Below are positions 380-19,829 of a stretch of 64,000 bases of DNA, one piece after another. This DNA comes from Wenzhouxiangella limi (lineage in GTDB: Bacteria; Pseudomonadota; Gammaproteobacteria; Xanthomonadales; Wenzhouxiangellaceae): contig NZ_JAAGSC010000041.1 of NCBI RefSeq assembly GCF_010499265.1, positions 173,521-237,520 on the forward strand, read 5' to 3'. The notes under the pieces were generated by a model. That model saw only the letters and a program-made list of their open reading frames with translations, was not told where the DNA came from and did not search any database. The position numbers were made by a program, and so were the translations under genes. The first letter of the stretch is position 1. Each line of letters starts with the position of its first letter.

Positions 380-2197
380 TCAGACCTGGTAGCGGTTGGA
401 CAGGGCTTCCTGGGCAGTGCGCACGATGCCGAAGGCTGACCGCAGGTAACGCCGGTGCAGGCCGGACAATTCGTCCGGGTCGACCAGGTGGTTGGGCTTT
501 TCGCCACGCTCGTAGAGCGCCACCTGGTGGCGCAGGCGCACGTTCCCGATGAAGCGCAGGGCGTGGATCAGGTCATCGGCATCGCCGTCGTTCATGATGC
601 CCTGCTCGCCGGCGGCCCGGAGCCGCTCCTCGGTGTGGACCGCGGTGATAGCGCCTTCCAGCGCGCGCACGCGGGCCAGATCGACGATCGGAATCACACC
701 CCGCTTTTTCAGGTTCAGGCCCTGGCTTTTTTCGCCGTCGTGCTCCTGGACGAACTGTCGGAAAAGGCCGAGCGGGGGGCGATGGCCCATGGATTCGGCG
801 GCCAGGAAGCGCCTGAAGATCTTGCTCTGGCTGGCCTGTTCCAGGACTTCGGCGTGCAGGCGACGGGCCATGGCGAGGTCGCCGGCGACACCGCGCATGT
901 CGAAAAAAATGCTGGACTGCATCACCGACTTTGGCTTCGGTTCCACGATCCAGCCGGCAAAGGTCTTGCGCCAGGCCGCGTATCCCATGCGCCATTCGCC
1001 CTTGGCCATGACACCGCCTGGACAGTAAACATAGCCGCAGTCGTTGAGGCCGTCACAGACGAAGTCGGCCAGCTTTCGGAAGTACTCGGCCGCCTCGCCT
1101 TCGGGGGCGTGGGCCAGTAAAAGACCATTGTCCTGATCGCTGACCAGGCCCTGCTCGAGACGGGCCTGCGAGCCGAAGGCCATCCAGGTCCAGGCCATGG
1201 GGGCTTCTCCCAACTGGTCCAGGGCCAGGGCCAGCAGCCGGCGCGTGCAGGCATCGGTGATCATGCTGGCCACCCGGCCGACTTCGCTGACCTGGCTGCC
1301 CTGCCGAGCCATTGCAGCGAGCATGCCGGGTCCCTGACGGGCTACTTCCGCCACCGCCGCTGCATTTTCCGCGCGCTGGATGTCGCGAACCAGTCGCAGG
1401 GGGTGCGGTGACTGCTGCCGCAGGAGGTCGCCGGAACTGATGACGCTGGCCAGTTGCCCGTCTTCGGTCGTCACTGGCAGATGGTGAATGCCCAGGCGCA
1501 TCATCTCGACCAGCGCATCCTCGATGCGGTGATGGGTAGAGACGGTGACGGGGTCCCGGGTCATGACCTCGGCGATTGGCAGCTTGGGATCCATGCCCTG
1601 GCCCAGCACCCGATTGCGCAGGTCGCGGTCGGTGACGATGCCCACCAGCGCGCCGTCGCGGACCAGCGGTACCGAGCTGACCTGGTGGCGGCTCATCAGC
1701 GCAGCTGTCTCGCCGATCGAGCGTTCTGGATCACCGGTGATCGGTGCTCGCAGCGGCAAGTCTCCGAGTCTTGCCGGGCGATGCCCGCTGGCTTCGCGCA
1801 GGCGGGCGCCGGGCCCATCGCTGAAAAACCTGGCGAAGTCGGGGTTACGTTGCCCCAGTGTTTCTAGATCCGGTGCCGGCAGGTGGAGCAGAGACAGCTC
1901 TTCGATGGCTTCGACCTCGTAGTCGCAGGCTTCGCCGTTGAAGCGCACGGCGTGGCCGAACAACTCGCCTTCGCCCCGCTGCTCCAGGGGACGACCATCG
2001 GCTGCCTTGAGGACGACCGCGCCTGCGGCGATGACGTAGATGCCGTGCTCCCCGGGTTGCTCGAACTGTCCGACCGAGTCGCCAGCGCTGAACTCGAGGG
2101 TCTGGCACGCGCTGATCAATGGCTCGATTTCTTCTCTGGGCAACTCCGAAAATGGCGCGACTTCGGCCAGAAACGCGCAGGACGCGGCAGGCTGCAT
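380..2197 (-). CDS. cNMP-binding / CBS-pair / DUF294 nucleotidyltransferase-like protein
   Basis: 605 aa. Visible domains are a cyclic-nucleotide-binding-like beta barrel (about residues 10-120), a tandem CBS pair (about 150-262, with VSSVPLVRDGALVGIVTDRDL and LGIHHLPVT), and a DUF294-type nucleotidyltransferase-like core containing GSQAR (342-346) and SDQDN (353-357), then the DUF294 C-terminal domain. The family resembles GlnD/KNTase folds and is found beside ActP-type symporters in Pseudomonas, Shewanella and Vibrio; its substrate is not established. The ATG is preceded by AAGGAG. It is the last gene of the receiver - pseudokinase/exonuclease - CBS operon, 36 bp after the preceding gene. 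A sensory or adenylylating role in acetate uptake is inference. Confidence 0.85.
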   Translation of the reverse strand: MQPAASCAFLAEVAPFSELPREEIEPLISACQTLEFSAGDSVGQFEQPGEHGIYVIAAGAVVLKAADGRPLEQRGEGELFGHAVRFNGEACDYEVEAIEELSLLHLPAPDLETLGQRNPDFARFFSDGPGARLREASGHRPARLGDLPLRAPITGDPERSIGETAALMSRHQVSSVPLVRDGALVGIVTDRDLRNRVLGQGMDPKLPIAEVMTRDPVTVSTHHRIEDALVEMMRLGIHHLPVTTEDGQLASVISSGDLLRQQSPHPLRLVRDIQRAENAAAVAEVARQGPGMLAAMARQGSQVSEVGRVASMITDACTRRLLALALDQLGEAPMAWTWMAFGSQARLEQGLVSDQDNGLLLAHAPEGEAAEYFRKLADFVCDGLNDCGYVYCPGGVMAKGEWRMGYAAWRKTFAGWIVEPKPKSVMQSSIFFDMRGVAGDLAMARRLHAEVLEQASQSKIFRRFLAAESMGHRPPLGLFRQFVQEHDGEKSQGLNLKKRGVIPIVDLARVRALEGAITAVHTEERLRAAGEQGIMNDGDADDLIHALRFIGNVRLRHQVALYERGEKPNHLVDPDELSGLHRRYLRSAFGIVRTAQEALSNRYQV

Positions 2198-2233
2198 GCG
2201 GATGTCTCCTTAGATTATCAATAGATCCGGGAA

Positions 2234-4423
2234 TCAGTAGTTGACCCGGGCATAGTAGGTCTTCTGGGCTGCCTCGCGCGCCTGCCTCAGGGTATGAATC
2301 CCCTTTTCGGCCAGCAGGGGGATGAGCTGAACGAGGATTTCGGCGGTCACCATGGCGTCGCCGATGGCGGTATGGCGACCGATAATGGTCAGTCCAAAAC
2401 GCTCGGCGATGGCTTCAAGGCGGTGCGAGTCCTGATTTTCATGGACCAGCGCCGACAACAGCAAGGTATCCAGCACCGGGTGATCGAAGCGCACGCCGGT
2501 GCGCTTTTCCTTGAGCTGCAGGCAGCGCATGTCGAAGGCCGCGTTGTGGGCAACCAGAACAGTATCCTGGCAGAAGCCGTGAAAGGCTGGCAAAACCTCG
2601 TCGATGGTCGGCTGGTCCTTGACCATGTCCGGAGTGATACCGTGAATCGGAATACTGGCTGGCGGAATGATCCGTTTCGGGTCGACCAGCTGGTCAAAGA
2701 ACTCATGCGTGAGCACCTTGCCGTTGACGATGCGGACCGCGCCAATCTGAATGATTTCGTCACCCTCCGCCGGATTCAGCCCTGTGGTCTCGGTATCAAA
2801 GACGGTATAGGCCAGCTCGACCAGGGGGCTGTCATCGAGGCCGCGGGTTCTTTCCGTGGCCTGGAACAGGTCAAAATCGTAATATTCCGGACGGCTTTCA
2901 TAGCGCATGAAGGTGGCGGCCGGCAGTTCTTCCTGGGGCGTGGCCAGGGGCAACAGCAGGCGAAAGAAGCAGCGATGGCGCGCGTCGTTGATTTCCTGCT
3001 CGATCCAGCATTCGCCGCCGTGACGTTCGAGGACATCGCGCACCGTCAAGGAGAGAGTTTCGGAGCCGACCTGAATCGGCTCCTGGTCCCAGCCGAGCTC
3101 GGCTTTGTCGCTTGCCCCGTCGCAGGGCATCCAGATCAGGTCCAGCACGCCCTGGCCGGATTGCTCGCCCGCTCGCAGGGTGAGCTTGCGTACCCTGCAG
3201 CGCTCGTGCAGGCGGCCCGCGAGATGGAGCACGGCTTGCAGCAGGGTGAAGCTCTCGACTTTCAGCCAGACGGCCTGGTTGCCTGGTTCGACATCGACCT
3301 GCAGGTCCAGCTCCGATTCCAGACGTCGCATGCCGGCTTCGACCAGATCTTCTCCCAGCATATCTTCCAGCGGCCAGCGTGAGCGAAGAGCAGCGCTTGA
3401 CGGCGGCTGCAGCTCATCGATCCGGCGACTCAGGCCGTGGACTTCCTCGCGGATTACGTCGAGCAGCCGTTCGCGCATTTGTTCGCTGATGGCGGGATCT
3501 TCCAGCACCTCGGCGGCTGCGCGGGCATTGGCCAGCCGCGACCGGGTTCCCTCGGTCAGGCTGGTAAGAATGCGGTCCTTTTCGGCATCGGCCTGCATTT
3601 CGTCGGTGATGTTTTCGATCAGCAGCACGAAACCGGTCATGCTGTCGGTCGCCCTGGCTTCCTTGCCGCTGGTCTCGACGTCGCGCACCGGGGTCATCTG
3701 CACTCGGAGCAGTTTGCCGGAGGGTGTGGTGGTGACGAACTGGGCCGACGGGGCACCGGCGCCGCGTCGCAGTCGGCGCTGCACGTTTTCGAGCGCGTGG
3801 TTGACGAGCTTGCGGTCCAGCACGGTATAGATCGACCGACCCAGGCCCATCAATTCGGCACCGCCGGCTGGCGTCGGCAGCCGCGAAAGGCGACGGAACT
3901 GCAGTCGCGCGCGATTGTTGTAAAGCAGTATGCGGCCGTCGAGATTGCAGACCACCACGCTCTTGGTCAGCTCCGACATCAGTGCTGCTAGCCGATTTTT
4001 TTCCAGTTCGGTCTGGCGGCTGGCGGCCTGTACGCGCTGGTCCATGTCCTCTCTGAGCGCCTCGCGCTGGGCGACCAGCTGTCCAATCACCTCGGCCAGG
4101 CGACGGTTTTCCGCGCTGCCGCGGGGTGTCGGGAGACGCTGGACATCGGTTTCGAGCAATAACCGGGCCTCCTCGGCCAGCTTGGCCGGTGCTCGCAGAT
4201 AGTGGTCGATCAGGTGGCGCAGGGCGGCCGCGGTCGGAACCAGAGAGCCGGCCCACAAAAACAGCAGTAGCCCACCCTTGCCGCCAAGTGCTTCCAGCAC
4301 GGTTTGCCAGTCGGCGGGATCCAGTACCGCCCATAGCAGGATCCCGGCCACGACCAGCCAAAGCAGGCAGGCCAGGCCGACGACGGCAACGCCGACGGCC
4401 AGACGCCAGTCAAATCGCCTCAT
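2234..4423 (-). CDS. Membrane PAS/degenerate histidine-kinase protein fused to a DEDDh 3'-5' exonuclease
   Basis: 729 aa. Two N-terminal membrane helices (about 8-34 and 48-72) are followed by a coiled linker, a PAS-like domain (about 140-275), a kinase-like region (about 285-510), and a C-terminal DnaQ-type exonuclease. The exonuclease has Exo I FDTETTG (D543, E545), Exo II HNAAFD (D631) and Exo III RHTAIGD (H684, D689), so the DEDDh set is complete. The kinase part looks dead: where an H-box should read SHELRxPL the sequence is LTEGTRSRL, and the N-box and G-boxes are not recognisable. Orthologues without stated function sit next to actP/DUF294 genes in other gammaproteobacteria. ATGA overlap with the upstream receiver gene implies translational coupling. 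A nuclease active near the membrane is inference. Confidence 0.85.
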   Translation of the reverse strand: MRRFDWRLAVGVAVVGLACLLWLVVAGILLWAVLDPADWQTVLEALGGKGGLLLFLWAGSLVPTAAALRHLIDHYLRAPAKLAEEARLLLETDVQRLPTPRGSAENRRLAEVIGQLVAQREALREDMDQRVQAASRQTELEKNRLAALMSELTKSVVVCNLDGRILLYNNRARLQFRRLSRLPTPAGGAELMGLGRSIYTVLDRKLVNHALENVQRRLRRGAGAPSAQFVTTTPSGKLLRVQMTPVRDVETSGKEARATDSMTGFVLLIENITDEMQADAEKDRILTSLTEGTRSRLANARAAAEVLEDPAISEQMRERLLDVIREEVHGLSRRIDELQPPSSAALRSRWPLEDMLGEDLVEAGMRRLESELDLQVDVEPGNQAVWLKVESFTLLQAVLHLAGRLHERCRVRKLTLRAGEQSGQGVLDLIWMPCDGASDKAELGWDQEPIQVGSETLSLTVRDVLERHGGECWIEQEINDARHRCFFRLLLPLATPQEELPAATFMRYESRPEYYDFDLFQATERTRGLDDSPLVELAYTVFDTETTGLNPAEGDEIIQIGAVRIVNGKVLTHEFFDQLVDPKRIIPPASIPIHGITPDMVKDQPTIDEVLPAFHGFCQDTVLVAHNAAFDMRCLQLKEKRTGVRFDHPVLDTLLLSALVHENQDSHRLEAIAERFGLTIIGRHTAIGDAMVTAEILVQLIPLLAEKGIHTLRQAREAAQKTYYARVNY

Positions 4424-4794
4424 CGCGCTTCCTTGAGCAGAATTTGCACCTGACGGACCAGGTCATCGGTAGAGAACGGCTTGACGATGTAGGCGTCGGC
4501 GCCCAGTGCCTTGCCCTTGGCGATATCGGTCTCGCGCGCCTTCGCGCTCAGCATCACGATGCGGATATGGCGCAGTGATGGATCTGCGCGAACCTGCTGG
4601 CAGATCTCGAAACCGGACTCGCCGGGCATCATCACGTCGAGCACCACCAGATCTGGACGTTGCTGCCGGATCATCTTCATTGCCTCAGTGCCATCGCGCG
4701 CCATGCTGACGTCGAAGCCCTGGCGCTGCATCAGGTATTCCAGCGAAATGAGCAGATTGGCTTCGTTGTCGGCGATCAGAACCTTGCTGGCCAT
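4420..4794 (-). CDS. Single-domain response regulator (CheY-like receiver)
   Basis: 124 aa from ATG 4794, chosen over an upstream in-frame start because MASKVLIADNEA begins the receiver fold and AGGAGG sits just upstream. Key residues are present: acidic D9 (IADNEAN), phospho-acceptor D53 (VVLDVMMPG), S83 (MLSAK) and K105 (IVKPF). There is no output domain. It overlaps the pseudokinase-exonuclease gene by 4 bp and is the first gene of that operon. Its partner kinase is not evident: the adjacent kinase-like protein lacks an H-box, so phosphorylation by another sensor such as CrbS or by a small phospho-donor is possible. The promoter region carries a copy of the acetate-locus palindrome. Confidence 0.88.
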   Translation of the reverse strand: MASKVLIADNEANLLISLEYLMQRQGFDVSMARDGTEAMKMIRQQRPDLVVLDVMMPGESGFEICQQVRADPSLRHIRIVMLSAKARETDIAKGKALGADAYIVKPFSTDDLVRQVQILLKEAR

Positions 4795-4816: not shown

Positions 4817-4859
4817 AAGGTAGCAAGCGGGAGGCGTGTTTACGCTTCGACTTTGGTTG
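4817..4859 (-). promoter_or_regulatory. Candidate CrbR-type operator and promoter for the receiver-exonuclease-CBS operon
   Basis: Read on the minus strand, CAACCAAAGTCG (4859 to 4848) is followed by AAG, and 25 nt later by the weak -10-like hexamer TACCTT (4822 to 4817). The promoter-proximal half GTCG is identical to that in the other three copies in this locus. The -10 match is poor (3 of 6), so the call depends on the shared geometry. Confidence 0.45.
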
Positions 4860-4867
4860 TAGAACGG

Positions 4868-5452: not shown

Positions 5453-5503
5453 CGATCTTGACCAGGCCGCCGGGGTTGGACCCGGCGACGGCATGTGCGG
5501 CGC

Positions 5504-7276
5504 TTAGTGGTCGACAGCGGCGCCGGCACCGCGCGGAACGCGGATGCTCTCGACCAGTTCCTGGATATGCTCGGGTGGTTCGGCTGTGACCTTCATCACA
5601 AGGTAGGCTACCAGGAAGTTGATCATCGCGCCGATGGCACCGAAAGACAGCGGCGAGATGCCGAGCAGCCAGTTGTCGGGCGTATTGGCGAGCATGTTGG
5701 TTTCCGGAATGAAGAACCAGCCCAGGTAGGTGAAGATGTAGAGCAGGGTGGCGATCAGCCCTGCCAGCATCCCGGCGACCGCGCCGTAGGTGTTCATTTT
5801 CTTGGAGAAGATGCCCATCATCAGGGCCGGGAACAGCGTCGCGGCCGCCAGTCCGAAGGCCAGTGCCACCACCTGTGCGGCGAAGCCCGGTGGATTGAGC
5901 CCGAGGTAGGTCGCCAGCGCGATCGCGAATGCCATCGATACGCGCGCGGCGAGCAGTTCCTGTTTGTCGGTGATGTTGGGCGTGAGCACTGATTTGAGCA
6001 TGTCGTGACTGATGGCCGAGGAAATCGCCAGAAGCAGCCCGGCCGCGGTCGACAGCGCTGCGGCCAGGCCGCCGGCGGCGATCAGGGCCAGTACCCAGGG
6101 CGGTAGCTGGGCGATTTCCGGATTGGCCAGAACCAGAATGTCGCGGTTGAAGGTCACCATTTCGTTCCCTTCCCAGCCTCGCTCGGCCGCAACCGAGGCA
6201 AACTCCTCGGAGTTGTCGTTGTAGTACTGGATGCGACCGTCGTCGTTTTTGTCCTCGAAGGCCAGCAGTCCCGTCTGTTCCCAGCTCTCCATCCAGTCCG
6301 GACGCTCGTCGTAGCGGATCGGCTCGGCTGACGTGCCGTCGGGGAAGATTGTGGTGATGATGTTCAGTCTGGCCATGGCGCCGACGGCCGGTGCGGTCAG
6401 GTAGAGCAGGGCAATGAACACCAGCGCCCAGCCGGCCGATTTGCGGGCATCGGCGACTTTCGGCACGGTGAAAAACCGGATGATGACGTGCGGCAGTCCG
6501 GCGGTGCCGATCATCAGCGACAGGGTAAACAGGACCATATTGACGGTGGAGCCATGATGACCGGTGTAGTCCTGAAAGCCCAGCTCGATCAGAACCTCAT
6601 TGAGCTTGGTCAGCAGGGGCATGCCGGACTCGGCGTGGGTCGAAAACAGTCCCAGCCCCGGAATCGGGTTATTGGTCAGCTGCAGGGAAATGAACACCGC
6701 GGGGATGGTGTAGGCGGTGATCAGCACGCAGTACTGCGCCAGCTGGGTGTAGGTGATCCCCTTCATGCCGCCGAGGACGGCATAGATGAAGACCACGGCC
6801 GCAGCGATGAACAGCCCGGTCTCGTTTTGCACTTCCAGAAAGCGCGAGAAGGCCACCCCGGCGCCGGTCATCTGGCCGATCACGTAGGTGATGGAACACA
6901 CCAGCAGGCAGACCACGGCGACGACGCGCGCACTCTGGCTGTAAAAACGGTCGCCGATGAATTCCGGAACCGTGAAGCGGCCGAACTTCCTCAGGTATGG
7001 CGCCAGCAGCAGCGCCAACAGCACGTAGCCGCCGGTCCACCCCATCAGGAAGGTCGAATTGCCGTAGCCGACGAAGGCGATCAGGCCTGCCATGGAAATG
7101 AACGAGGCCGCCGACATCCAGTCGGCGGCAGTCGCCGCGCCGTTGACGATCGGATTGACGCCGCGACTGGCAGCGTAGAAGTCGGACGTCGTCCCGGCGC
7201 GCGCCCAGATGGCGATGCCGATGTAGAGGGCGAACGAGGCGCCGACGACGAGGAGATTGAGTGTGAACTGGCTCAT
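5504..7276 (-). CDS. Sodium:solute symporter, VC_2705 (ActP-like) family
   Basis: 590 aa, 13 or more hydrophobic segments, SSS/SLC5 fold. The N-terminus reads FYAASRGVNPIVNGAATAAD and the core GGMKGITYTQLAQY, matching the large-subunit symporters that pair with DUF4212 proteins and are commonly annotated as acetate permeases. A hydrophilic insert (about 311-392) separates two membrane segments and holds an EF-hand-like loop DKNDDGRIQYYN at 342-353. GGGAG precedes the ATG, and the gene starts 16 bp after the DUF4212 stop. Likely function is Na+-coupled uptake of acetate or another short carboxylate at the inner membrane; the substrate is inferred from the family and from acs, crbS and crbR next door. 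Confidence 0.88.
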   Translation of the reverse strand: MSQFTLNLLVVGASFALYIGIAIWARAGTTSDFYAASRGVNPIVNGAATAADWMSAASFISMAGLIAFVGYGNSTFLMGWTGGYVLLALLLAPYLRKFGRFTVPEFIGDRFYSQSARVVAVVCLLVCSITYVIGQMTGAGVAFSRFLEVQNETGLFIAAAVVFIYAVLGGMKGITYTQLAQYCVLITAYTIPAVFISLQLTNNPIPGLGLFSTHAESGMPLLTKLNEVLIELGFQDYTGHHGSTVNMVLFTLSLMIGTAGLPHVIIRFFTVPKVADARKSAGWALVFIALLYLTAPAVGAMARLNIITTIFPDGTSAEPIRYDERPDWMESWEQTGLLAFEDKNDDGRIQYYNDNSEEFASVAAERGWEGNEMVTFNRDILVLANPEIAQLPPWVLALIAAGGLAAALSTAAGLLLAISSAISHDMLKSVLTPNITDKQELLAARVSMAFAIALATYLGLNPPGFAAQVVALAFGLAAATLFPALMMGIFSKKMNTYGAVAGMLAGLIATLLYIFTYLGWFFIPETNMLANTPDNWLLGISPLSFGAIGAMINFLVAYLVMKVTAEPPEHIQELVESIRVPRGAGAAVDH

Positions 7277-7292
7277 GGTGATCTTGCTCCCT

Positions 7293-7559
7293 TTACTGTT
7301 CGTCGACGCCGAATTCGCGGTCGACCCGGTTCATGTACCAGGTGTAGTAGAAGATCAGCGCGATGAAGGTCAGGATCGAGCCCTGCTGGGCGAACCAGAA
7401 TCCCAGATCGGTGCCCCCGATGGTGATTGGCAGCATCTGCAAAAGCGGCCGCAGCAGGATGGCGAACCCGAAGGACACCAGGGCCCAGATGGCCAGGCAG
7501 ATCTTGATGATGCGGATATTGGCCGTCCAGTAGGCGGCAGCGGACTTGTCGTCAGACAT
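7293..7559 (-). CDS. DUF4212 small subunit of the symporter
   Basis: 88 aa with two membrane helices (about 21-41 and 54-73), beginning MSDDKSAAAYWTANIRII. The ATG at 7559 is preceded by GAGGGA; a longer in-frame start would add 46 residues with no membrane or family features. DUF4212 proteins are encoded directly upstream of VC_2705-type symporters and resemble the YjcH partner of ActP. It is the first gene of the operon, and its promoter region holds the acetate-locus palindrome. Confidence 0.88.
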   Translation of the reverse strand: MSDDKSAAAYWTANIRIIKICLAIWALVSFGFAILLRPLLQMLPITIGGTDLGFWFAQQGSILTFIALIFYYTWYMNRVDREFGVDEQ

Positions 7560-7603
7560 GATGATTGGATTCCCTCGGCAGAAGTGTGCTTGTTCTTTCT
7601 TGA

Positions 7604-7646
7604 AGTGTAGGCAGCCTGTTTGAGAAAACCCATACGACCAAAGTAG
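7604..7646 (-). promoter_or_regulatory. Candidate CrbR-type operator and promoter for the DUF4212-symporter operon
   Basis: On the minus strand CTACTTTGGTCG (7646 to 7635) is followed after 25 nt by TACACT (7609 to 7604), a good -10. The -35 position is poor (TGGGTT), as expected for an activator-dependent promoter. The box centre falls near -43 of the predicted start. It also lies in the divergent crbS upstream region, where TATGAT at 7668-7673 could be the crbS -10. Confidence 0.55.
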
Positions 7647-7718
7647 GTTCCGCCTGTGAGGCGCTGCTATGATGCGTGCGGTTTCTGATGGACGCATTCA
7701 CAAAACGATGGGCGCCTG

Positions 7719-10700
7719 ATGTTTTCCCCGACGGTTCTGGTGCTGGTTTCCCTGGCCTACGTGGGCGTGTTGTTCCTGATCGCCTGGTGGGGCGATCGGG
7801 TTGCGTTCAGGCGTGGTCGCCTGCCGGGCCAGCCTGTCATCTACAGCCTGTCGCTGGCGGTGTACTGCACGTCCTGGACCTTCTACGGCGCGGTCGGACA
7901 GGCGGCCACGACCGGCTGGGATTTTCTGCCCGTTTACCTGGGGCCAATCCTGATGTTCGCGGTCTTCGGCGGTTTTTTGCAGCGCATGGTGCGCGTCGCC
8001 AAGGAGCAACAGGTTACCTCGATCTCCGACTTTCTGGCCTCGCGCTTCGGTAAGACCCGTCGCCTGGCGGTCCTGGTGACCGTGGTCGCCGCATTGGGCG
8101 TTCTGCCCTATATCGCTCTTCAGCTCAAGGCCATCGCCATGGGCTTCGATCTGTTGACTTCGGATCTGGCGCAGCCCCTGACAATGCTGGACAGTCCGGG
8201 CCCGATCCAGCGCGATACCGCCCTGGGCGTTGCACTGCTGCTGGGTGTATTCGCGATGCTGTTCGGAACACGCCAGCTTGACGCCACGGAGCATCACCCC
8301 GGCCTGATGCTGGCGATCGCCTTCGAGTCCATGGTCAAGCTGCTGGCCTTCCTCGCGGTCGGAATTTTCGTGACCTGGTTTCTGTTCGACGGACCTGAAT
8401 CGCTGGCGCCCATGGCCGTGGACGATGCTCTGGTGGCCGCGGTATTTGCACCGGAGAACGTGCGGCTGACTTTCGTCACTATCCTGCTGCTGTCCACGCT
8501 CGCCGTATTCTGTCTGCCGCGCCAGTTTCACGTTGCGGTGGTCGAAAGCACGAGCGCGCGGGACGTGCGCTGGGCGCGGCTACTTTTCCCCCTGTATCTG
8601 GTCCTGATCAGTCTGTTCATCGCACCGGTCGCGGTCGCCGGGTTGCTGATTTTCGGCGACAGCATGGCTCCGGATGCCTTCGTTCTGACGCTGCCGCTTC
8701 AGGCCGGACAGGAATGGCTGGCGCTGCTGGCCCTGCTCGGCGGATTTTCTGCTGCAACCGGCATGGTCATCGTGGCCGCTGTTGCCCTTTCGATGATGGT
8801 GTCGAACGACATCGTCATGCCGCTGCTGCTCAGGGCCAGGCCGGTTTCTGGCGGCGCCGGTGCAGATCTTGGGCGCTTGCTGCTGGTGGTGCGACGCGTG
8901 GTCATCGTGGGGCTTTTGCTGCTGGCCTGGCTGTACTACCGGCTGTTCGGGTATTCCGAGAGCCTGGCCGGCATCGGACTGCTTTCCTTCGCCGCGGTCG
9001 CCCAGTTCGCGCCGCTGGTGATTGCGGCCATCTTCAGCCGGAAGGCCAATCGCCAGGGAGCCTTGCTCGGGCTCTCGCTTGGATTCGGTACCTGGTTGTA
9101 CTGCCTGCTGCTGCCGGTTGTTGCGCGCGGCATCGGTATCGGGCAGGTCTGGCTGGACCAAGGGCCCTGGGGATGGGCCTGGCTGCGTCCCGAAGCGCTG
9201 TTCGGGTTTGAGGCCGGTGATGCTCTAAGCCACGGCGTATGGTGGTCGCTGTTGCTGAACGTCCTCGGCCTGCTGGTCGGTTCCTGGTTCGGTTCACCGC
9301 GGCCTATCGACCGGATCCAGGCCAATGCCTTCAGCGGGGCGGCCAGTGACCCGGGGACGGATTCGCTACCGCGGGCCGGCATCGCCACGGTCGGTGACCT
9401 GGTCCAGCTGACCCGGCGATTCCTCGGCGAGCGCCGCGCCCGGCTGGCTTTTGACGAGTTTGCGCGGCGCGCCGGTCGTGAGCTTGGCGATGCTCAGCCG
9501 GCCGATGCCGGCCTGGTCGGCCATACCGAGCGGGTGCTGGCCGCGGTCATCGGGGCCAGTTCGGCGCGGATCGTGCTGGCCTCCGCCCTGGCCGGCAGCG
9601 GGATGCAGCTGGACCAGGTCGTCACCCTGCTCGATCAGACCTCACAGAAGCTCAAGTTTCGCCAGGAGTTATTGCAATCCGCCCTGGAGAACCTGTCGGA
9701 GGGTATCAGCGTGGTTGACGGGGAACTGCGGCTGGTGGCCTGGAATCGTGCCTATCTGGATCTGTTCGATTACCCGGACGGACTGGTCCAGATCGGTCGT
9801 CCGGTCGAGGAGCTGCTGTATTTCAATGCCCGCCGCGGCATGATGGGCGAAGGCGATGTCGAGTCGCTGGTCGAGCGACGGCTGCACTGGATGCGCCAGG
9901 GGAGTTCGCACTTCTACCAGCGACATACCGGCGACGGCCGGGTGATCGAGATTCGCGGCAACCCGATGCCCGGCGGTGGCTTCGTCACCAGCTTCAGCGA
10001 TGTCACCGAGCGTCTGCAGGCCGAGGAAGCCCTGCGCCAAAGCGAGCGCAACATCCGTTTCTACACCGACAACGTTCCGGCCCTGCTGGCCTATGTCGAT
10101 GCCGATCTCTCTTTCCGCTTCACCAACCGGGCCTACGAGAACCTGCTGGGCCTGAACCGTTCGGAGCTGATAGGTCGACACCTGCACGAAGTTTTCGATC
10201 AGCACGAAATGCTGCGCCGCTCACCCTATCTGGAAGGGGCGCTGGCCGGCGAGCGCCAGGACTTCGAGCTGGAAATCATCGATGCTCGCCAGCGTCGCCG
10301 CTACGTTCTTGCGACCTACATCCCGCAGTTCAACCGGCGTGGCGAAGTGCTGGGGTTTTTCTCCCTTTTGCAGGACATCACCGAGCGCCGCCAGGCCGAA
10401 CTCCGGCTCCAGGAGGCCAAGGAAGAGCTTGAGCGAAGAGTTGCCAGCCGCACCCATGAGCTCACCGAACTGAACCGTGAACTGAGTCAGGAGATTCGCA
10501 TCCGCTCGCGCGTTGAAGACGCCTTGCGCGAGGCCAAACGGGAAGCCGACGAGGCCAACCATTCCAAGACCCGCTTCCTGGCTGCGGCGAGCCACGACCT
10601 TTTGCAGCCGCTCAACGCGGCTCGGCTATTCATTTCAGCGCTTGGCCAGCAGCAGGGTTTTACCCCGGAACAGGCGCATCTGATCGAGCGGCTGGAAGGA

Positions 10701-11687
10701 TCAATCGGCAGTGCCGAGGAGTTGCTCAGCGCCCTGCTCGATATCTCGCGGCTCGACGCTGGCGCCATGGCGACGGATGTGCGGGAGTTTACGATTGCCG
10801 ATCTGCTTGATCCCCTGTATGCAGAATTCAGCGCACTGGCGCGCGAGCGTGGTCTTCGTTTTGATCTGGTGGCCTGTCGGGCCCGGGTCGTGTCGGACCC
10901 CAAGCTGCTGCGCCGGGTTCTGCAGAACTTCATCTCCAACGCGCTGCGCTATACCGAGCGCGGTCGCGTGCTGTTGGGCTGCAGGCGCCGGGACGGTCAT
11001 TTGAGTCTGCAGGTCTGGGATACCGGCCCCGGCATACCCGCGGACCAGACCGAGTCGATCTTTCGCGAATTCCACCGCCTGGAAGCCTCGCGCCGCAGCC
11101 GTGAGCGCGGTCTGGGGCTGGGCCTGGCGATTGTCGATCGGATCGCCCGGATGCTGGACCACCCGGTCAGCTTGCATTCCCAACCGGGTCGAGGGACGGT
11201 TTTCGCGTTGACGGTACCGTTAGCGACCGGTTCGGCCGAACCGCCTGCGGCCCGTTCCGGGCGGGCGCGTCGGCAGGGGCGGGACCTGGCCGGCATGCGA
11301 GTGCTGTGCGTGGACAACGAGCCCGACATCCTGGCGGGCATGCGTTCGCTGATCGCGCCGTGGGGATGTGATGTCCGGATCGCGCGCGATGAGAACGAGG
11401 CGCTGGCGGTGATGGGAGATGACTGGCTGCCGGCTGCCATACTGGCCGACTACCACCTTGATGAGGCACGCAACGGCATCGATCTGATGAATCGGCTCCG
11501 GGCGCGCTTCACGGATCCTGTCGGCGGTATCCTGATCACCGCTGACCAGGCTGAACCGGTCCGCAACGAAGCGCGCGCAAACGGCTATCGCGTGCTGCAC
11601 AAACCGCTTAAACCGGCGGCGCTGCGGGCCTTGCTGAGTCGATTGGAAAGTCTGCGCGAGCGCGATCAAGCGCCGCGAGAGGGCTGA
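7719..11687 (+). CDS. crbS: CrbS-type hybrid sensor kinase: SLC5 transporter domain + PAS + histidine kinase + receiver
   Basis: 1322 aa. Residues 1 to about 510 form an SSS/SLC5-like membrane domain of about 13 helices; a linker (about 530-640, STAC-like position), a PAS domain (about 650-760) and a second PAS (about 765-885) follow. Then come a coiled coil, HisKA with ASHDLLQPLNAARL (H959), HATPase with NFISNALRYTERG, VWDTGPGIP and RGLGLGLAI, and a C-terminal receiver with D1244 (LADYHLD). This is the architecture of CrbS (MxtR), the sensor established in Vibrio and Pseudomonas to control acetyl-CoA synthetase through CrbR. Its 3' end overlaps crbR convergently by 22 bp, and the symporter operon diverges from it. 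The ligand sensed is unknown. Confidence 0.9.
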   Translation: MFSPTVLVLVSLAYVGVLFLIAWWGDRVAFRRGRLPGQPVIYSLSLAVYCTSWTFYGAVGQAATTGWDFLPVYLGPILMFAVFGGFLQRMVRVAKEQQVTSISDFLASRFGKTRRLAVLVTVVAALGVLPYIALQLKAIAMGFDLLTSDLAQPLTMLDSPGPIQRDTALGVALLLGVFAMLFGTRQLDATEHHPGLMLAIAFESMVKLLAFLAVGIFVTWFLFDGPESLAPMAVDDALVAAVFAPENVRLTFVTILLLSTLAVFCLPRQFHVAVVESTSARDVRWARLLFPLYLVLISLFIAPVAVAGLLIFGDSMAPDAFVLTLPLQAGQEWLALLALLGGFSAATGMVIVAAVALSMMVSNDIVMPLLLRARPVSGGAGADLGRLLLVVRRVVIVGLLLLAWLYYRLFGYSESLAGIGLLSFAAVAQFAPLVIAAIFSRKANRQGALLGLSLGFGTWLYCLLLPVVARGIGIGQVWLDQGPWGWAWLRPEALFGFEAGDALSHGVWWSLLLNVLGLLVGSWFGSPRPIDRIQANAFSGAASDPGTDSLPRAGIATVGDLVQLTRRFLGERRARLAFDEFARRAGRELGDAQPADAGLVGHTERVLAAVIGASSARIVLASALAGSGMQLDQVVTLLDQTSQKLKFRQELLQSALENLSEGISVVDGELRLVAWNRAYLDLFDYPDGLVQIGRPVEELLYFNARRGMMGEGDVESLVERRLHWMRQGSSHFYQRHTGDGRVIEIRGNPMPGGGFVTSFSDVTERLQAEEALRQSERNIRFYTDNVPALLAYVDADLSFRFTNRAYENLLGLNRSELIGRHLHEVFDQHEMLRRSPYLEGALAGERQDFELEIIDARQRRRYVLATYIPQFNRRGEVLGFFSLLQDITERRQAELRLQEAKEELERRVASRTHELTELNRELSQEIRIRSRVEDALREAKREADEANHSKTRFLAAASHDLLQPLNAARLFISALGQQQGFTPEQAHLIERLEGSIGSAEELLSALLDISRLDAGAMATDVREFTIADLLDPLYAEFSALARERGLRFDLVACRARVVSDPKLLRRVLQNFISNALRYTERGRVLLGCRRRDGHLSLQVWDTGPGIPADQTESIFREFHRLEASRRSRERGLGLGLAIVDRIARMLDHPVSLHSQPGRGTVFALTVPLATGSAEPPAARSGRARRQGRDLAGMRVLCVDNEPDILAGMRSLIAPWGCDVRIARDENEALAVMGDDWLPAAILADYHLDEARNGIDLMNRLRARFTDPVGGILITADQAEPVRNEARANGYRVLHKPLKPAALRALLSRLESLRERDQAPREG

Positions 11688-12346
11688 AACGCATCGGCGG
11701 CCTGCGCGGGAGAATCGACCCCCAACTGGTTGAGCAGCAGAACCGCCTGCGTTCGGTTGCTGACCTCCAGCTTGCGAAAAATCGCGGTCATGTGGGCCTT
11801 GACCGTGGCTTCCGAGATACCAAGCTCAAAAGCGATCTGCTTGTTCAGCAGCCCGTCGGCCAGCATCATCAGCACGCGGAACTGCTGCGGGGTAAGTTCG
11901 CCCAGGCGCCCGGCCACGTCGAGTTCGTCGGCGGCGCTACCGGCCACATCGCTTTCGGGTGGATGCCAGATGTCGCCGGCCAGCACGGTCTCCAGCGCAT
12001 TTCGAATCTCTTCCACCGAAGCGGATTTGTGGATGAAGGCGGCCGCGCCGTGATCCAGGGCGCGCTGGATGACCACGGCATTGTTATTGGCCGATATCAG
12101 ACACACCGGCAGCTCAGGATGGTGGGCGCGAAGATACACCAGCGCCGAGAACCCCTGCACGCCGGGCATGTGCAGATCCAGCAGGACGAGGTCTGCCGAG
12201 TCATGCTCCGCGGTGACTTGCTGCAGTTCTTCCATGCTGCCGGCCTGGGCAATCACGACATCGCCCAGGGCCTGGCGCAGGGCCAGGCTCAGGGCCTCCC
12301 GGAACAGCGGATGGTCATCGGCGACGATGACCTTGCGGCGGTTCAT
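11666..12346 (-). CDS. crbR: CrbR-type LuxR/NarL-family response regulator
   Basis: 226 aa: receiver domain (D10, D11, phospho-acceptor D57 in LLDLHMPG) and a C-terminal LuxR helix-turn-helix (about 150-215; LLNKQIAFELGISEATVKAH). It is the expected partner of the adjacent CrbS; in Vibrio cholerae and Pseudomonas this regulator activates acs. It lies 26 bp downstream of acs on the same strand, so it is probably co-transcribed with acs, giving positive autoregulation. The ATG has only a weak ribosome site. The palindromes at 4848-4859, 7635-7646, 14384-14395 and 14403-14414 are its candidate binding sites (inference). Confidence 0.9.
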   Translation of the reverse strand: MNRRKVIVADDHPLFREALSLALRQALGDVVIAQAGSMEELQQVTAEHDSADLVLLDLHMPGVQGFSALVYLRAHHPELPVCLISANNNAVVIQRALDHGAAAFIHKSASVEEIRNALETVLAGDIWHPPESDVAGSAADELDVAGRLGELTPQQFRVLMMLADGLLNKQIAFELGISEATVKAHMTAIFRKLEVSNRTQAVLLLNQLGVDSPAQAADAFQPSRGA

Positions 12347-12372
12347 GACGGCAGGTCGCCGGGGCGGATCGA

Positions 12373-14316
<1,944 letters not shown>

Positions 14317-14351
14317 GATCGTTTCTCGATGGGCTTTCGAATTCGGCCCCC

Positions 14352-14395
14352 AGTCTATCAATGCCGGGGAATCGCGACACATTCGACTTAAGTCG
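14352..14395 (-). promoter_or_regulatory. Candidate CrbR-type operator and acs promoter
   Basis: Perfect 12-bp palindrome CGACTTAAGTCG (14384-14395). On the minus strand it is followed by AATG and, 26 nt after the box, by TAGACT (14357 to 14352), a 4-of-6 -10 match. The predicted start lies about 29 nt upstream of the acs ATG. The -35 position is poor. Confidence 0.6.
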
Positions 14396-14418
14396 CTAGC
14401 TGCGACTAAGGTCGAATG
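14380..14418. repeat. Near-perfect 17-bp inverted repeat between acs and the porin gene
   Basis: Arms 14380-14396 (CATTCGACTTAAGTCGC) and 14402-14418 (GCGACTAAGGTCGAATG) flank a 5-nt centre and differ at only a few central positions. Each arm is itself a 12-bp near-palindrome, so the structure reads as two tandem operators 19 bp apart (centre to centre) rather than a terminator: there is no T-tract and it lies between two divergent starts. Confidence 0.8.
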
Positions 14419-14444
14419 CGTTCTGCCTGGCTCACTGATATGCT
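14403..14444 (+). promoter_or_regulatory. Candidate CrbR-type operator and porin promoter
   Basis: Second palindrome CGACTAAGGTCG (14403-14414), followed by AATG and, 24 nt after the box, by TATGCT (14439-14444; 4 of 6 to the -10 consensus). The predicted start is about 26 nt upstream of the porin ATG, which has AGGAG in front. Confidence 0.55.
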
Positions 14445-14476
14445 GTTAACGCTTCCATAACAAGAGGAGAGAGAGC

Positions 14477-15805
14477 ATGAAATCACGAGGGCTGAAGAAA
14501 CTGGTCGTGGCGCTATGCGTCGCGGGTCTAACCGTGCCGGCATGGGCCGACGCCGACCCATCTGAACGCGAACGCGCGTTGGAGCAGCGCGTCGCCGATC
14601 TTGAGCGCATGGTCCAGCGGCTGTTGTCTGAACGCGAAGACGAGACCGAAGAGGCTGCACCGCAGCTTGAGCAGGAGGTTGAGGAACTCCGTGCTGAGGT
14701 GGCCCGCCTCGATACCGAGAAGGCCGAGCAGGTAATCAGTCCGGGCACCAACTTCAGCTTCGGCGGTTTCATCAAGCACGACATGATGTACAGCCGCTAC
14801 AGCGACGGAACGCCGGCGCCGCAGAGTATCTTGCGCGACTTCTACGTTGCCGGCGCCGTGCCGGTCGGGGGCGAAGAGTCGACGACCGATTTCGATACCC
14901 ATGCCCGCGAGACCCGGTTCATCTTCAACGTCGAGCGGCCTGAAGACGGTCTCCAGGGTTACATCGAGATGGACTTCACTTCCCGCACGGGGGGTGACGA
15001 GCGCCTGACCAATGCAACCAGCCCGAGTATCCGGCACATGTTCGTGCGGTGGAACAATCTCCTCGCCGGCCAGCACTGGTCGACCTTCCAGAACGTCGGT
15101 GCGCTACCGGAAAATCTGGACTTTGTCGGTCCGGCCGAGGGCACGATCTTTGTCAGGCAGCCCCAGATTCGCTACACCAACGGGCCCTGGCAGTTCTCGC
15201 TGGAAAACCCCGAGACTACGGTGACCCCCTTCGGCGGTGGTGGCCGGATCGTGACCGACACGGCCAGCGTGCCCGATGTCGTGGTGCGCTACAACCACTC
15301 GGCTGACTGGGGCTCTTTCGTGGCTGCCTTCATGGGTCGGCAACTCGGTATCGATGGCCCAGGCGGCACTGAGCGCGAGACCTCGTTTGCATTCAGCCTG
15401 TCGGGCAAGTTCGACATTGGCCGCAACGATATCCGCTGGATGTTCTCAGGCGGTCCGGGCATCGGACGCTACCTGGGCCTGAACACCGCCAACGATGCGG
15501 TGCTCGACGCCGGTGGTGATCTGGAAGCCATCGACGCCTATGGCGGGTTCTTGTCCTATCGTCATTTCTGGTCTGACCAGTGGCGCTCAAACTTCACCCT
15601 GTCTGCCTTCAGCGCCGACAACGAGACCAATCTGACCGGGTTTGGTGTGACCGAGCAGGCTGAGAGCGCGCACGTGAACCTGATTTACCAGGCCAATTCA
15701 AAGCTTCGCTTCGGTGCCGAGTACATCTACGGCCGGCGCGAGGTTGAATCCGGCGCCTCAGGCAACATGAACCGTCTGCAGTTCTCCACCATTTACGCAT
15801 TCTGA
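14477..15805 (+). CDS. DcaP-like outer-membrane porin
   Basis: 442 aa. A signal peptide (about 1-25, ending VPAWADA) is followed by a charged coiled-coil stretch (about 30-85; EQEVEELRAEVARLD) and a beta-barrel rich in alternating aromatic and polar residues. It ends in IYAF, with the C-terminal phenylalanine typical of outer-membrane barrels. The N-terminal coiled coil plus barrel starting FSFGGFIKHDMMYSRYSDG fits the DcaP family of trimeric porins for dicarboxylates and other small anions. AGGAG precedes the ATG. Divergence from acs and the shared operator pair suggest it admits acetate or related carboxylates (inference). Confidence 0.8.
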   Translation: MKSRGLKKLVVALCVAGLTVPAWADADPSERERALEQRVADLERMVQRLLSEREDETEEAAPQLEQEVEELRAEVARLDTEKAEQVISPGTNFSFGGFIKHDMMYSRYSDGTPAPQSILRDFYVAGAVPVGGEESTTDFDTHARETRFIFNVERPEDGLQGYIEMDFTSRTGGDERLTNATSPSIRHMFVRWNNLLAGQHWSTFQNVGALPENLDFVGPAEGTIFVRQPQIRYTNGPWQFSLENPETTVTPFGGGGRIVTDTASVPDVVVRYNHSADWGSFVAAFMGRQLGIDGPGGTERETSFAFSLSGKFDIGRNDIRWMFSGGPGIGRYLGLNTANDAVLDAGGDLEAIDAYGGFLSYRHFWSDQWRSNFTLSAFSADNETNLTGFGVTEQAESAHVNLIYQANSKLRFGAEYIYGRREVESGASGNMNRLQFSTIYAF

Positions 15806-15850: not shown

Positions 15851-15950
15851 ATGCTGTGCCAAGCAGCGTTTGTGCCTCGCTTCTTCATGCTATGTTCGCC
15901 ATCCGTAATAGCCAAACGGCTCGGGTGTGCCCAGTTCCGAATCCCACAAC

Positions 15951-18900
15951 ATGAGTTCTTCCGACCGCGCGACCCTGTTGTCGCAGGTGGCCGAGGCGCT
16001 GGTCACCGCCGGGCCGGAGTCGATCGATGCTTTGATCGAGCAGGCGTTGGCAAGAACGGGCCGTCTGCTGGAAGTTGATCGCTGTTCCCTGTTTCTGTTC
16101 AGCGAGCGCAGCACTGAACTCGAGCTGACCCACGGCTGGGAGGCCAAGGGTGTCCCGGCGCTGCCGCTGAAATCCATGTCCTCGGTGCCGGCGGCCAAAT
16201 TGTTCCCCAGAACGATGGAGGCCCTGCTCACGGGTCGGGCTTTGCCGATCAGCGACACCCGCCGGCCCGACAAAGTGATTCAGGATGAGGGCGAACGTCT
16301 GTTGCAATTGGGCATTCGCGCCATCTTGCTGGTACCAATGTTTGCCGGCGAGCGTCCCGTTGGCCTGATCGGCATCGATCGGGCCAGTGCAGTGAGGGAC
16401 TGGTCCGGGGATGAATCGACTCTGCTGGATAATCTTGGCCAGTTTCTGACCCACGCGTTGCTGCGCGTGCGCGCCGAGCAGACATTGCGGCAGGTCAAGG
16501 AGCGGTACCAGGCCTTGACCGAGAAGAGCCAGAGCATCCTGTTCGAGGTCGGTCGGGATGGACGCTATAACTTCGTTTCCAGTAACGCAGAGGCCATAAC
16601 CAGCTACCGGGCCGACGAGCTGGTCGGACGCTCGTTCCGGGATTTTCTGCATCCTGAGGATCTGCCGGACCTGCTCGCTAAATTTCGAACGGCGATGACC
16701 GATTCCGCGGCACTGCCCGTGCTCGAGTATCGGGTGATTCACGGGGATGAAAGCGTGCACTGGCACCGGGCCGTGCTCGTGCCCTTGCGTGACGAGTGCG
16801 GCAGTATCCGCGGCGTGGTTGGCACTGCCCTCGACATTACCGATCTCAAGGAGCTTGAATCCCACCTCCGAGGCGAGGCCGCGCTCACAGCGCTGCTGGT
16901 GCGAATGGCCACCCACTACATCAATCTGCCGATTCGTGATTTCGAGTCGGCAATCGCCCGCTCGCTGCGCGAGCTGGGACAATTCGTTGGCGCTGATCGG
17001 GCGTACGTCTTTCGCTATGATCGTGAAGCCGGAGTGGCGAGCAATACCCACGAGTGGTGCGCGGCCGGCATCACGCCCCAGATCGAAGAGCTGCGCGCCG
17101 TGCCGCTGGACCAGATCAGCGACTTTGCCGCTTTGCACCAACGGGGCGAGCCGATCCACATCGCTGAGGTTTCGTCCTGGCCCCATGAAGGCACGCGCGA
17201 AATTCTGGCCGCACAGCATGTCCAGTCGCTGGTGAGTGTGCCCTTGATGCTCGACGGCGAGTGTCTGGGCTTTGTCGGCTTCGACTACGTGCGTGCCCCC
17301 AGGGACTATTCCGGCAACGAGATCCATCTGCTGACCGTGTTTGCCCAGATGTTGGTCAACATGCGGGTTCGGGGAAAAATCGAGCGCCAGCTCGCCGATG
17401 AACGTCGTCGTCTCGGCGAGATCATCGACGGTACCGACGCCGGCACCTGGGAATGGAATCTGGAAACCGGCGAGATGCGGTTCAATCACCGCTGGGCCGA
17501 AATGCTGGGTGTCGCGTCGGTGGAGGATCTGCCACCGACCTCGAGCGACTGGGCCCACCACGTTCATCCCGACGACGCCCGCGTGGGGATGGAGAACCTG
17601 ATCGGCCACCTGAAGGGGCTGCAACCCAACCTGGAAACCGAAATCCGGGTCCGCCGTGCTGACGGAAGCTGGCTGTGGATTCTGGTACGCGGCCGGGCCT
17701 CGCACCGGGAAGCGGACGGCCGGGCACGCCTGATATCGGGCATTGCCATCGACATCCAGCAGCGCAAGCAGGCCGAGGCCGAGCTGCGCAAGGCCGCCAG
17801 CGTTTTCACCCACTCTGGCGAGGGCATTCTGATTACCGATCTGGACAATCGGATTGTCGAGATCAACGAAGGCTTTACCCGGATCACCGGCTACCCGCGA
17901 GAGGAGATCCTGGGGCGCAAGCCAAGCGTGCTTTCGTCGGGGCGGCACGACGAGGGTTTTTACAGTGCCATGTGGCGGGATCTTCTGGCCGATGGTTACT
18001 GGTCCGGCGAGATCTGGAACCGTCGCCGGGACGGCACCGAGTATGCCCAGCGCCTGACGATCTCGACCGTTCGCGACGATGATGGCAAACCCTCGCACTA
18101 TGTCGGCCTGTTCGCCGACATCACGGCCCAGAAAAATTACCAGCGCGAACTGGAGCGCATGGCCCACTACGATTCGCTGACCGGCCTGCCGAACCGTATT
18201 CTGCTGGGCGATCGGCTCAGTCAGGCGATGTCGCAGGCGCGCCGCAACGGTCAACAGATCGCGGTGGCCTATATCGACCTGGACAACTTCAAATCCATCA
18301 ATGATCGGCATGGACATCGGGCCGGCGATCAGGTGCTCAGGGCTGTTGCCCAGCTGTTTTGCGAGGTCCTGCGGGAAACCGATACGGTGGCGCGTCCCGG
18401 CGGCGATGAGTTTGTTGCCATTTTGACCGGGCTGGGGGCGGAGACCCAACTGGATCGGCTGCTGCAGCGGCTGTTGCACAAACTGGACCCGCCAATCGTT
18501 TTGGACGAGGTTGGCGTAAAGGTGAGCTTGAGCATCGGCGTGACGCTGTACCCCCAGGTTGGAGAACCGGAAGCCGATCAGCTGCTGCGCCAGGCAGACC
18601 AGGCCATGTTCGAGGCCAAGCGCAAGGGCCGCAATAATGTCTGTTACTTCGATACCGAGCTGGAGCGAAGCGCCCAGCAGCGTCGACTCGACCAGATCCG
18701 CCTGCGCCAGGCGCTGGCCGACGACGAGTTCGCCCTTTATTACCAGCCGCAGGTCGACCTGCAAACCGGCAGGGTTCAAGGTGTCGAGGCCCTGATTCGC
18801 TGGATTCATCCGGATCGCGGGCTGCTGGCGCCGGCGGCTTTCCTGCCCATGATCGAAGACCCCGCGCTGGCCGTTGAGCTGGGGCAGTGGGTGATAGAGC

Positions 18901-19829
18901 GCGCCCTGCAGGATAACGAGCATTGGCGCCGTGGCGGCCTCGACCTCGACATTGCGGTCAATGTTGACGCCGCCGATCTCCTGGCCCAGGATTTTACTGG
19001 CCGGCTGCAGCGCATCCTGGCTGACCACCCCGATTTTCCGGTAAGGCGGCTGATGCTGGAGGTGGTCGAAACCAGCATGCTCGAAGACATCTCGCAGGCC
19101 ACTGCCATCACGCGCGCTTGCCAGGGGCTCGGAGTTGCCTTTGCGCTGGATGATTTCGGGACCGGTTTTTCGTCCCTGAGCCACTTGAAGCATCTTCCGC
19201 TGCAACAGCTCAAGATCGATCGCAGCTTTGTCTCCGACATGATGTCCGACGCTGATGATCTCGCCATCGTCGAAGCGGTGATCAACCTGGGCCAGGTGTT
19301 CAGTCTGGACGTGCTGGCTGAGGGCGTTGAATCGGATGAGCACGTCGAGGCCCTGATGCAGTTGGGATGCCGCCTGGCCCAGGGCTATCGAATCGCACGC
19401 CCCATGCCGGCCAACGAGATTTGCGGATGGGTCGAGGGCTGGAAATTGCCGGAATCCTGGCGTCGTGTTCGTCCTTTGCTACGCGAGAATCGGCCGCTGT
19501 TGTTTGCCGAAGCCGACCTGCGCTGTCGTCTGAAGCGGCTGGAAGCAGCGGTTGGTTCGCTTTCCACCCAGTGTCCGCTGATCCCGCAGCCGACGCCGCC
19601 CTCCGGACTGGAGAATTGGCTGGCCACGCATGGGCAAGCGCCGGCCGTTGAGGGCTTGATGGACATCGTTTCAGCGCTGATTGTCCGTGAAGAAGCGTTG
19701 CTGGATTTGTGTCGGGCGGGTCGGCAGGTGGATGCTGAAGCCGAGCTGGCGCGTTTTGCTGAGCCGGCGAGCCGGCTGATCGAACGCCTGCGAGGCCTGC
19801 GCAGCCAGGATCCAGGCACCGAGGCGTGA
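15951..19829 (+). CDS. GAF/PAS multidomain c-di-GMP enzyme with GGDEF and EAL domains
   Basis: 1292 aa from ATG 15951; a GTG at 15927 is an alternative. Order: GAF (about 20-170), PAS (about 190-305), GAF (about 320-470), PAS (about 480-610), PAS (about 615-735), GGDEF (about 740-905), EAL (about 925-1165), then a helical tail. The cyclase motif is intact (GGDEF 817-821) with an I-site RETD at 808-811 for product inhibition. The phosphodiesterase side has EAL at 946-948 and DDFGTGFSSL. Both activities are therefore possible. No membrane segment is visible, so it should be a cytosolic sensor. The tail (1165-1292) resembles a zinc-binding CZB domain without its histidines. Its stop overlaps the start of the MlaE gene. 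Confidence 0.9.
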   Translation: MSSSDRATLLSQVAEALVTAGPESIDALIEQALARTGRLLEVDRCSLFLFSERSTELELTHGWEAKGVPALPLKSMSSVPAAKLFPRTMEALLTGRALPISDTRRPDKVIQDEGERLLQLGIRAILLVPMFAGERPVGLIGIDRASAVRDWSGDESTLLDNLGQFLTHALLRVRAEQTLRQVKERYQALTEKSQSILFEVGRDGRYNFVSSNAEAITSYRADELVGRSFRDFLHPEDLPDLLAKFRTAMTDSAALPVLEYRVIHGDESVHWHRAVLVPLRDECGSIRGVVGTALDITDLKELESHLRGEAALTALLVRMATHYINLPIRDFESAIARSLRELGQFVGADRAYVFRYDREAGVASNTHEWCAAGITPQIEELRAVPLDQISDFAALHQRGEPIHIAEVSSWPHEGTREILAAQHVQSLVSVPLMLDGECLGFVGFDYVRAPRDYSGNEIHLLTVFAQMLVNMRVRGKIERQLADERRRLGEIIDGTDAGTWEWNLETGEMRFNHRWAEMLGVASVEDLPPTSSDWAHHVHPDDARVGMENLIGHLKGLQPNLETEIRVRRADGSWLWILVRGRASHREADGRARLISGIAIDIQQRKQAEAELRKAASVFTHSGEGILITDLDNRIVEINEGFTRITGYPREEILGRKPSVLSSGRHDEGFYSAMWRDLLADGYWSGEIWNRRRDGTEYAQRLTISTVRDDDGKPSHYVGLFADITAQKNYQRELERMAHYDSLTGLPNRILLGDRLSQAMSQARRNGQQIAVAYIDLDNFKSINDRHGHRAGDQVLRAVAQLFCEVLRETDTVARPGGDEFVAILTGLGAETQLDRLLQRLLHKLDPPIVLDEVGVKVSLSIGVTLYPQVGEPEADQLLRQADQAMFEAKRKGRNNVCYFDTELERSAQQRRLDQIRLRQALADDEFALYYQPQVDLQTGRVQGVEALIRWIHPDRGLLAPAAFLPMIEDPALAVELGQWVIERALQDNEHWRRGGLDLDIAVNVDAADLLAQDFTGRLQRILADHPDFPVRRLMLEVVETSMLEDISQATAITRACQGLGVAFALDDFGTGFSSLSHLKHLPLQQLKIDRSFVSDMMSDADDLAIVEAVINLGQVFSLDVLAEGVESDEHVEALMQLGCRLAQGYRIARPMPANEICGWVEGWKLPESWRRVRPLLRENRPLLFAEADLRCRLKRLEAAVGSLSTQCPLIPQPTPPSGLENWLATHGQAPAVEGLMDIVSALIVREEALLDLCRAGRQVDAEAELARFAEPASRLIERLRGLRSQDPGTEA

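Follow-up and report, generated by a model that had tools for sequence, protein, structure and literature searches.

Paired candidate CrbR boxes between acs and a divergent DcaP-family porin gene in Wenzhouxiangella limi and related bacteria

In Wenzhouxiangella limi the gene for acetyl-CoA synthetase and a gene for an outer-membrane porin are read in opposite directions from one short gap, which raises the question of whether the porin is switched on together with acetate activation, and by the same regulator. A sequence-only reading had proposed that the two genes share a back-to-back operator pair, one copy for each promoter, and that the porin could be a new member of the CrbR regulon. The features that bear on this question in the window, i.e. 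the whole stretch of 64,000 nucleotides that was analysed, are the following.

7719..11687, + strand: CrbS-like hybrid histidine kinase (long N-terminal part, PAS, HisKA, HATPase, REC)
11666..12346, - strand: CrbR/ErdR-like LuxR-type response regulator, downstream of acs (ErdR model)
12373..14316, - strand: acs, acetyl-CoA synthetase (acetate--CoA ligase), 647 aa, TIGR02188 over cut-off
acs start codon 14316 (-) to porin start 14477 (+): acs/porin gap, 160 bp
14352..14357, - strand: candidate acs -10, TAGACT, 23 nt after the 17-bp box
14381..14397, - strand: candidate ACTU (CrbR) box, acs side, AGCGACTTAAGTCGAAT, GAAT end towards acs
14401..14417, + strand: candidate ACTU (CrbR) box, porin side, TGCGACTAAGGTCGAAT, GAAT end towards porin
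14439..14444, + strand: candidate porin -10, TATGCT, 21 nt after the 17-bp box
14477..15805, + strand: DcaP-family outer-membrane porin, 442 aa (PF19577, 6eus_A)

The porin scores 48.3 bits on PF19577, against a gathering threshold of 27, and is thus a member of this family; its profile matches 6eus_A with an E-value of 2.6e-24. The regulator combines a REC domain with a LuxR-type HTH, and its gene adjoins crbS and acs, as expected of CrbR. Its best NCBIfam model is that of ErdR (NF041830), on which it obtains 241 bits, short of the curated cut-off of 390. A second ErdR-like response regulator (G000:C35:311368-312015, L307) is 51% identical to it, has a recognition helix that looks similar by eye, and obtains 219 bits on the same model. 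Since the cut-off is missed and the paralogue scores nearly as high, "CrbR-like" is a fair name, and the paralogue stays a rival. In CrbS an SLC5-like N-terminus is expected ahead of the PAS, kinase and REC domains; in the CrbS-like kinase PAS, kinase and REC are present, while the N-terminal part gave no match to the Pfam SSF family, and it matches the profile of 10ed_A ("histidine kinase") with an E-value of 2e-100. Downstream of the porin gene, at 15927-19829 (+), lies a 1300-aa putative signalling protein in which GAF, PAS, GGDEF and EAL domains were read by eye.

According to the available text of Sepulveda and Lupas (PMC5715377), the ACTU element, located from -52 to -36, is required for CrbR activation of acs in Pseudomonas fluorescens SBW25. 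Both candidate boxes in the gap are 17-bp imperfect inverted repeats that match the SBW25 sites, and they stand back to back, with their GAAT ends outward and 19 bp from centre to centre. Two palindromes had been proposed here. The left one (CGACTTAAGTCG, 14384-14395, centre 14389.5) is as described, the right one (CGACTAAGGTCG, 14403-14414, centre 14408.5) turns out to be imperfect in its central four bases, and the spacing of 19 bp between the centres holds. The 39-bp inverted repeat that they were said to form is the same object as one found by our repeat search at 14377-14421, with arms of 20 and 20 nt that are 85% complementary and have 5 nt in between. Likewise, the distances to the -10 elements given earlier, 26 nt for acs and 24 nt for the porin, are correct when counted from the palindrome edges, and become 23 and 21 nt when the count starts at the ends of the 17-bp sites. 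On both sides, relative to the predicted -10s, the box therefore occupies the position expected of an ACTU element, just upstream of the -35 region and about 23 nt before the -10, a spacing equal to that implied by the mapping of the SBW25 acs promoter in the same available text (PMC5715377).

How surprising is such a pair of sites? A matrix built from the four verified SBW25 sites, which also served for the published-site scan of loci, for the test on unpaired acs genes and as the start of a refined matrix, gave scores of 18.9 to the porin box and 12.9 to the acs box, the highest and third-highest of the 64 kb; the porin-side box has the top score of the window with both matrices. The degenerate 14-base ACTU pattern GACYWANGKCKAAT is matched twice in 3.35 Mb of genome sequence, each time in this gap, and its backwards control once. 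With up to three mismatches the 16-base pattern GCGACTWARGTCGAAT is found at 25 places in the genome, vs 58 for its backwards control; with no mismatches it is found only at the two gap boxes, the next best place having two. That third-best match (C35:203660) was dropped for lying inside an ORF, one that presumably belongs to a deo-like gene row, judging by the translations. The palindrome core CGACNNNNGTCG was also rejected as a signal: it occurs at 138 sites in the genome, fewer than the 169 of its backwards control, so that the core alone means nothing.

Among 101 genomes searched, the porin was matched in 60 and acs in 94. We used 63 of 80 listed porin matches, the others being 15 weak paralogues and two fragments from G008, and 95 acs matches, without the class at 39-44% and a fragment in G028. 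Among these, acs and the porin gene are divergent in 43 genomes from eight families of the window's order. At least one box was present in all 43 gaps and at least two in 41, counted by distinct dyad centres so that no palindrome is counted twice, although many rows are close relatives (e.g. Pseudoalteromonas) and the counts are not independent events. The matrix used for these counts included two predicted, unverified SBW25 sites (PFLU0447 and PFLU5314) besides the verified ones; dinucleotide shuffles of the same gaps had at least one box in 3.8% of cases and at least two in 0.05%. With the matrix refined on these gaps from the four verified sites, at least two boxes were found in 42 of 43. 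G045 is the exception with both matrices, while G065 reaches two boxes with the refined one only. The case that the sequence-only reading had named as speaking against it, relatives that keep only the acs-proximal box, was thus not borne out.

In an alignment of six close sequences (mean identity 65%), the two boxes and the two -10 regions are islands of conservation, the acs -10 being TANANT and the porin -10 TATNCT in all six. Over the divergent pairs, the score for a -10-like hexamer peaks 23 nt past the box on both sides, followed by 22 nt; the mean score at 23 nt is -2.2 for acs and -3.26 for the porin, and the highest values reached by 200 shuffles are -4.32 and -4.44, respectively. The search for the best hexamer covered 18-27 nt, and many of the hexamers are poor -10s. 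The distance between the outermost boxes, in contrast, varies between 16 and 397 bp, a value of 19 bp being confined to the window and five close relatives. The near-symmetry of the pair is therefore real in the window and absent as a general feature, and helical phasing between boxes was rejected as a general feature for the same reason. That the inter-box distance is free while the distance from box to -10 is steady on each side argues for one box per promoter.

In addition, 63 of 80 named loci (L222-L284) were scanned with a matrix trained on the window's order. At the 44 named loci where acs faces the porin gene, all had at least one box and 38 had at least two, six having a single box; without nine loci that repeat training genomes, the corresponding counts are 35/35 and 29/35. 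Ten named loci have crbR rather than acs facing the porin gene, and these have at least one box in 10/10 and at least two in 8/10. Nine other named loci have at least one box in six cases and at least two in five. Elsewhere in the scanned loci the background is 24 sites per 817,702 bp. The named loci include Pseudoalteromonas, Alteromonas, Aliikangiella, Marinicella and Woeseiaceae, and there are alphaproteobacterial names as well (Kordiimonas, Emcibacter and Rhodothalassium). In many Pseudoalteromonas loci the acs-side box is the only one that the published-site matrix detects by itself, and the order-trained matrix is needed to see the second. In L227, L233, L234, L236, L242, L244, L252 and L271, two boxes lie between crbR and the porin gene that it faces, which hints at autoregulation of crbR in those lineages.

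A class-wide draw had the porin in 20 of 369 genomes (E-value threshold 1e-40), and 16 of the porin places lie outside the window's order. At three of these the porin gene faces acs, with at least one box. At three others it lies downstream of acs on the same strand: L306 has a box upstream of acs, L299 is without one, and at L298 the sequence is cut off. At one (L300) it faces crbR, without a box, and three have boxes with neither acs nor crbR within 3 kb. In six of the 16 places in this class-wide sample, neither acs, crbR nor a nearby box was found. An acs or acs-like gene followed by the porin gene on the same strand is seen in L299, L306 and L229, and the layout of L306, with one box upstream of acs and the porin downstream, is an alternative route to co-regulation. 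For 24 porins that do not face acs, chosen for having a box (L229, L245 and L248, which lack either upstream sequence or a box at the threshold used, were left out), the -10 profile has its maximum 22 nt past the box and the best hexamer falls at 22-23 nt in 19 of 24. At C36, where a weak paralogue of the porin is encoded, the 400 bp inspected contain no box.

The boxes are also statistically linked to crbR. Among 52 acs genes that do not face the porin, the refined matrix at 14 bits found a box in 8 of 10 with crbR adjacent vs 1 of 42 without it (Fisher 5e-7), and the verified-site matrix at 9 bits found one in 8/10 vs 9/42. The acs gene of G032 and one acs gene of G046 have crbR beside them and no box. 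Of the 43 divergent pairs, 37 have crbR adjoining acs, adjacency having been taken from 70 listed crbR matches that were chosen for a top score or for their closeness to acs.

While the two sides share their spacing, they do not share every base. When each box is oriented to its own gene, position 12 is T in 42/42 boxes on the acs side, whereas on the porin side it is G in 29, T in 10 and A in 3 of 42, a contrast with a Fisher value of 2e-14 that is not corrected for kinship. Whichever site came last in the gap was taken as the porin-side box; for G018 and G029 this probably selects one next to the true box, and the rows were kept. Porin-side boxes thus form a distinct class, of the GAC..GGC type, as against the acs side. 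The ten boxes with T include that of the window, in whose lineage the porin box is canonical. A spacing of 15-17 bp separates the last two boxes of 8 of the 42 pairs and, as read off the list, of 19 of 63 named loci. Since G at position 12 breaks the dyad, most porin-side boxes may bind weakly, and together with the double boxes this suggests that binding at the porin may be weaker or cooperative. One may tentatively go further and suppose that porin promoters carry dyad-broken CrbR boxes, some lineages adding another one 15-17 bp further upstream, so that the porin would be a late, high-signal output, and that the window's lineage has rebuilt these into a compact canonical pair in which each box is proximal for one promoter and distal for the other; we regard this as possible but rather doubtful.

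These data can be set against other readings of the gap. Both boxes could serve acs only, the porin gene being a bystander, and in the window the 19 bp between them is near enough for joint action on acs. However, in relatives the outer boxes can be as far as 397 bp apart, the porin-side box holds its distance to the porin -10, and porins without an adjacent acs can retain both box and spacing, so that we give this explanation very little credence. It is likewise hard to believe that CrbR represses the porin or that the two promoters compete: back-to-back promoters can indeed interfere, and the sequence does not give the sign of regulation, but the box stands immediately before the -35, as does the activating site mapped for acs, and it keeps this place where acs is absent.

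Other readings concern the identity of the protein rather than the layout. The consistent difference at position 12 could mean that the porin promoters have an operator of their own for some other regulator, one that only resembles an ACTU box; this is highly improbable, since both sides agree at the remaining conserved positions and in their spacing to the -10, and the window's lineage has a canonical porin box. Alternatively, the boxes could be bound by another LuxR-type response regulator instead of the neighbouring CrbR, for example by the paralogue at G000:C35:311368, whose score on the ErdR model and similar recognition helix make it the obvious candidate. One would then hardly expect boxes at unpaired acs genes to track crbR adjacency, nor crbR to adjoin acs in so many divergent pairs, and we consider this, too, quite unlikely. 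We are thus largely confident that the gap is a bidirectional promoter, in which CrbR on two ACTU boxes activates acs and the porin gene, each from its own box. Since many related bacteria retain such pairs, we count the porin as a very probable new member of the acetate regulon, a CrbR target predicted to be co-activated with acs.

Two neighbouring operons carry weaker candidate boxes.

380..4794, - strand: operon-like row of a receiver-domain protein, an exonuclease-domain protein and then a cNMP/CBS/DUF294 nucleotidyltransferase protein
4845..4861, - strand: fourth candidate ACTU box, TACAACCAAAGTCGAAG, with a poor -10, TACCTT (4822-4817), 22 nt further on
5504-7276 and 7293-7559, - strand: symporter operon, divergent from crbS, with a VC_2705-family sodium/solute symporter and a DUF4212 small subunit, respectively
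7632..7648, - strand: third candidate ACTU box, ACCTACTTTGGTCGTAT, 22 nt before TACACT (7609-7604)

The third and fourth boxes are weaker evidence, since the coding sequences of acs and the porin also contain sites that score about as high. A site similar to the third box, GCCTACTATGGTCGTAT, is present upstream of crbS in L205, L206 and L207. The symporter is over the cut-off of TIGR03648 and far below that of TIGR02711 (ActP). With crbS, crbR, the symporter and the CBS/DUF294 genes, the stretch 380-15805 is probably a module for acetate uptake and activation.

How does this compare with known systems? The CrbS/R (MxtR/ErdR) regulon of SBW25, as far as the available text of PMC5715377 describes it, has the motif, the spacing from box to -10 and the acs target in common with our locus. 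A symporter operon and a cNMP/CBS/nucleotidyltransferase protein are targets there and candidates here, the latter protein having the domain make-up described for the SBW25 CrbR target Pflu5625. In contrast, crbS, crbR and acs are scattered in SBW25, judging by locus tags, whereas here they are clustered; the symporter here is of the VC_2705 type, not ActP as in the SBW25 comparison; and there is no porin among the targets reported in that text, in which the word occurs once, in a reference title. Nor did we find a report of a porin in the CrbR regulon in the literature searched, which consisted mostly of papers outside subscription.

With the DcaP porins of Acinetobacter (6eus; PMC12338516) our porin shares the family PF19577 and the profile match to the solved structure. 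In the available text of that study, DcaP3 has a role in growth on di- and tricarboxylic acids, DcaPs from outside Acinetobacter could not be put in the four classes, and neither CrbR nor acetate occurs. That a DcaP porin is needed for di- and tricarboxylic acids makes acetate plausible as a substrate, and acetate or other small carboxylates are plausible for the porin described here. The PP_2662 porin of the Pseudomonas ped cluster is also reported to be induced, with genes for short-chain alcohol oxidation; its inducers, however, are alcohols, acting on it together with the ped genes, and neither an ACTU box nor an acs neighbour is mentioned in the available text (PMC12997753).

The mechanism that we infer from sequence comparison would run as follows. 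In the presence of acetate or a related signal, the response regulator CrbR would be activated through CrbS and would bind the two ACTU boxes in the gap. As the two genes each have a box directly before their -35 region, each CrbR dimer would activate its own promoter, one leading to acs and the activation of acetate, the other to the DcaP-type porin and the entry of its substrate across the outer membrane. Uptake may not be limiting in the laboratory, as, in the text available, deletion of actP left growth on acetate unimpaired in SBW25 and E. coli.

The usual view is that small carboxylates cross general porins freely. A dedicated, co-regulated pore would therefore bear on how acetate is scavenged at low natural concentrations. 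The regulon as described to date consists of an enzyme, an inner-membrane symporter and accessory genes, to which the porin would add the outer-membrane step, and a DcaP porin outside Acinetobacter would gain a predicted inducer and a predicted role. As the pairing is kept in several orders, the response of the porin would bear on many bacteria.
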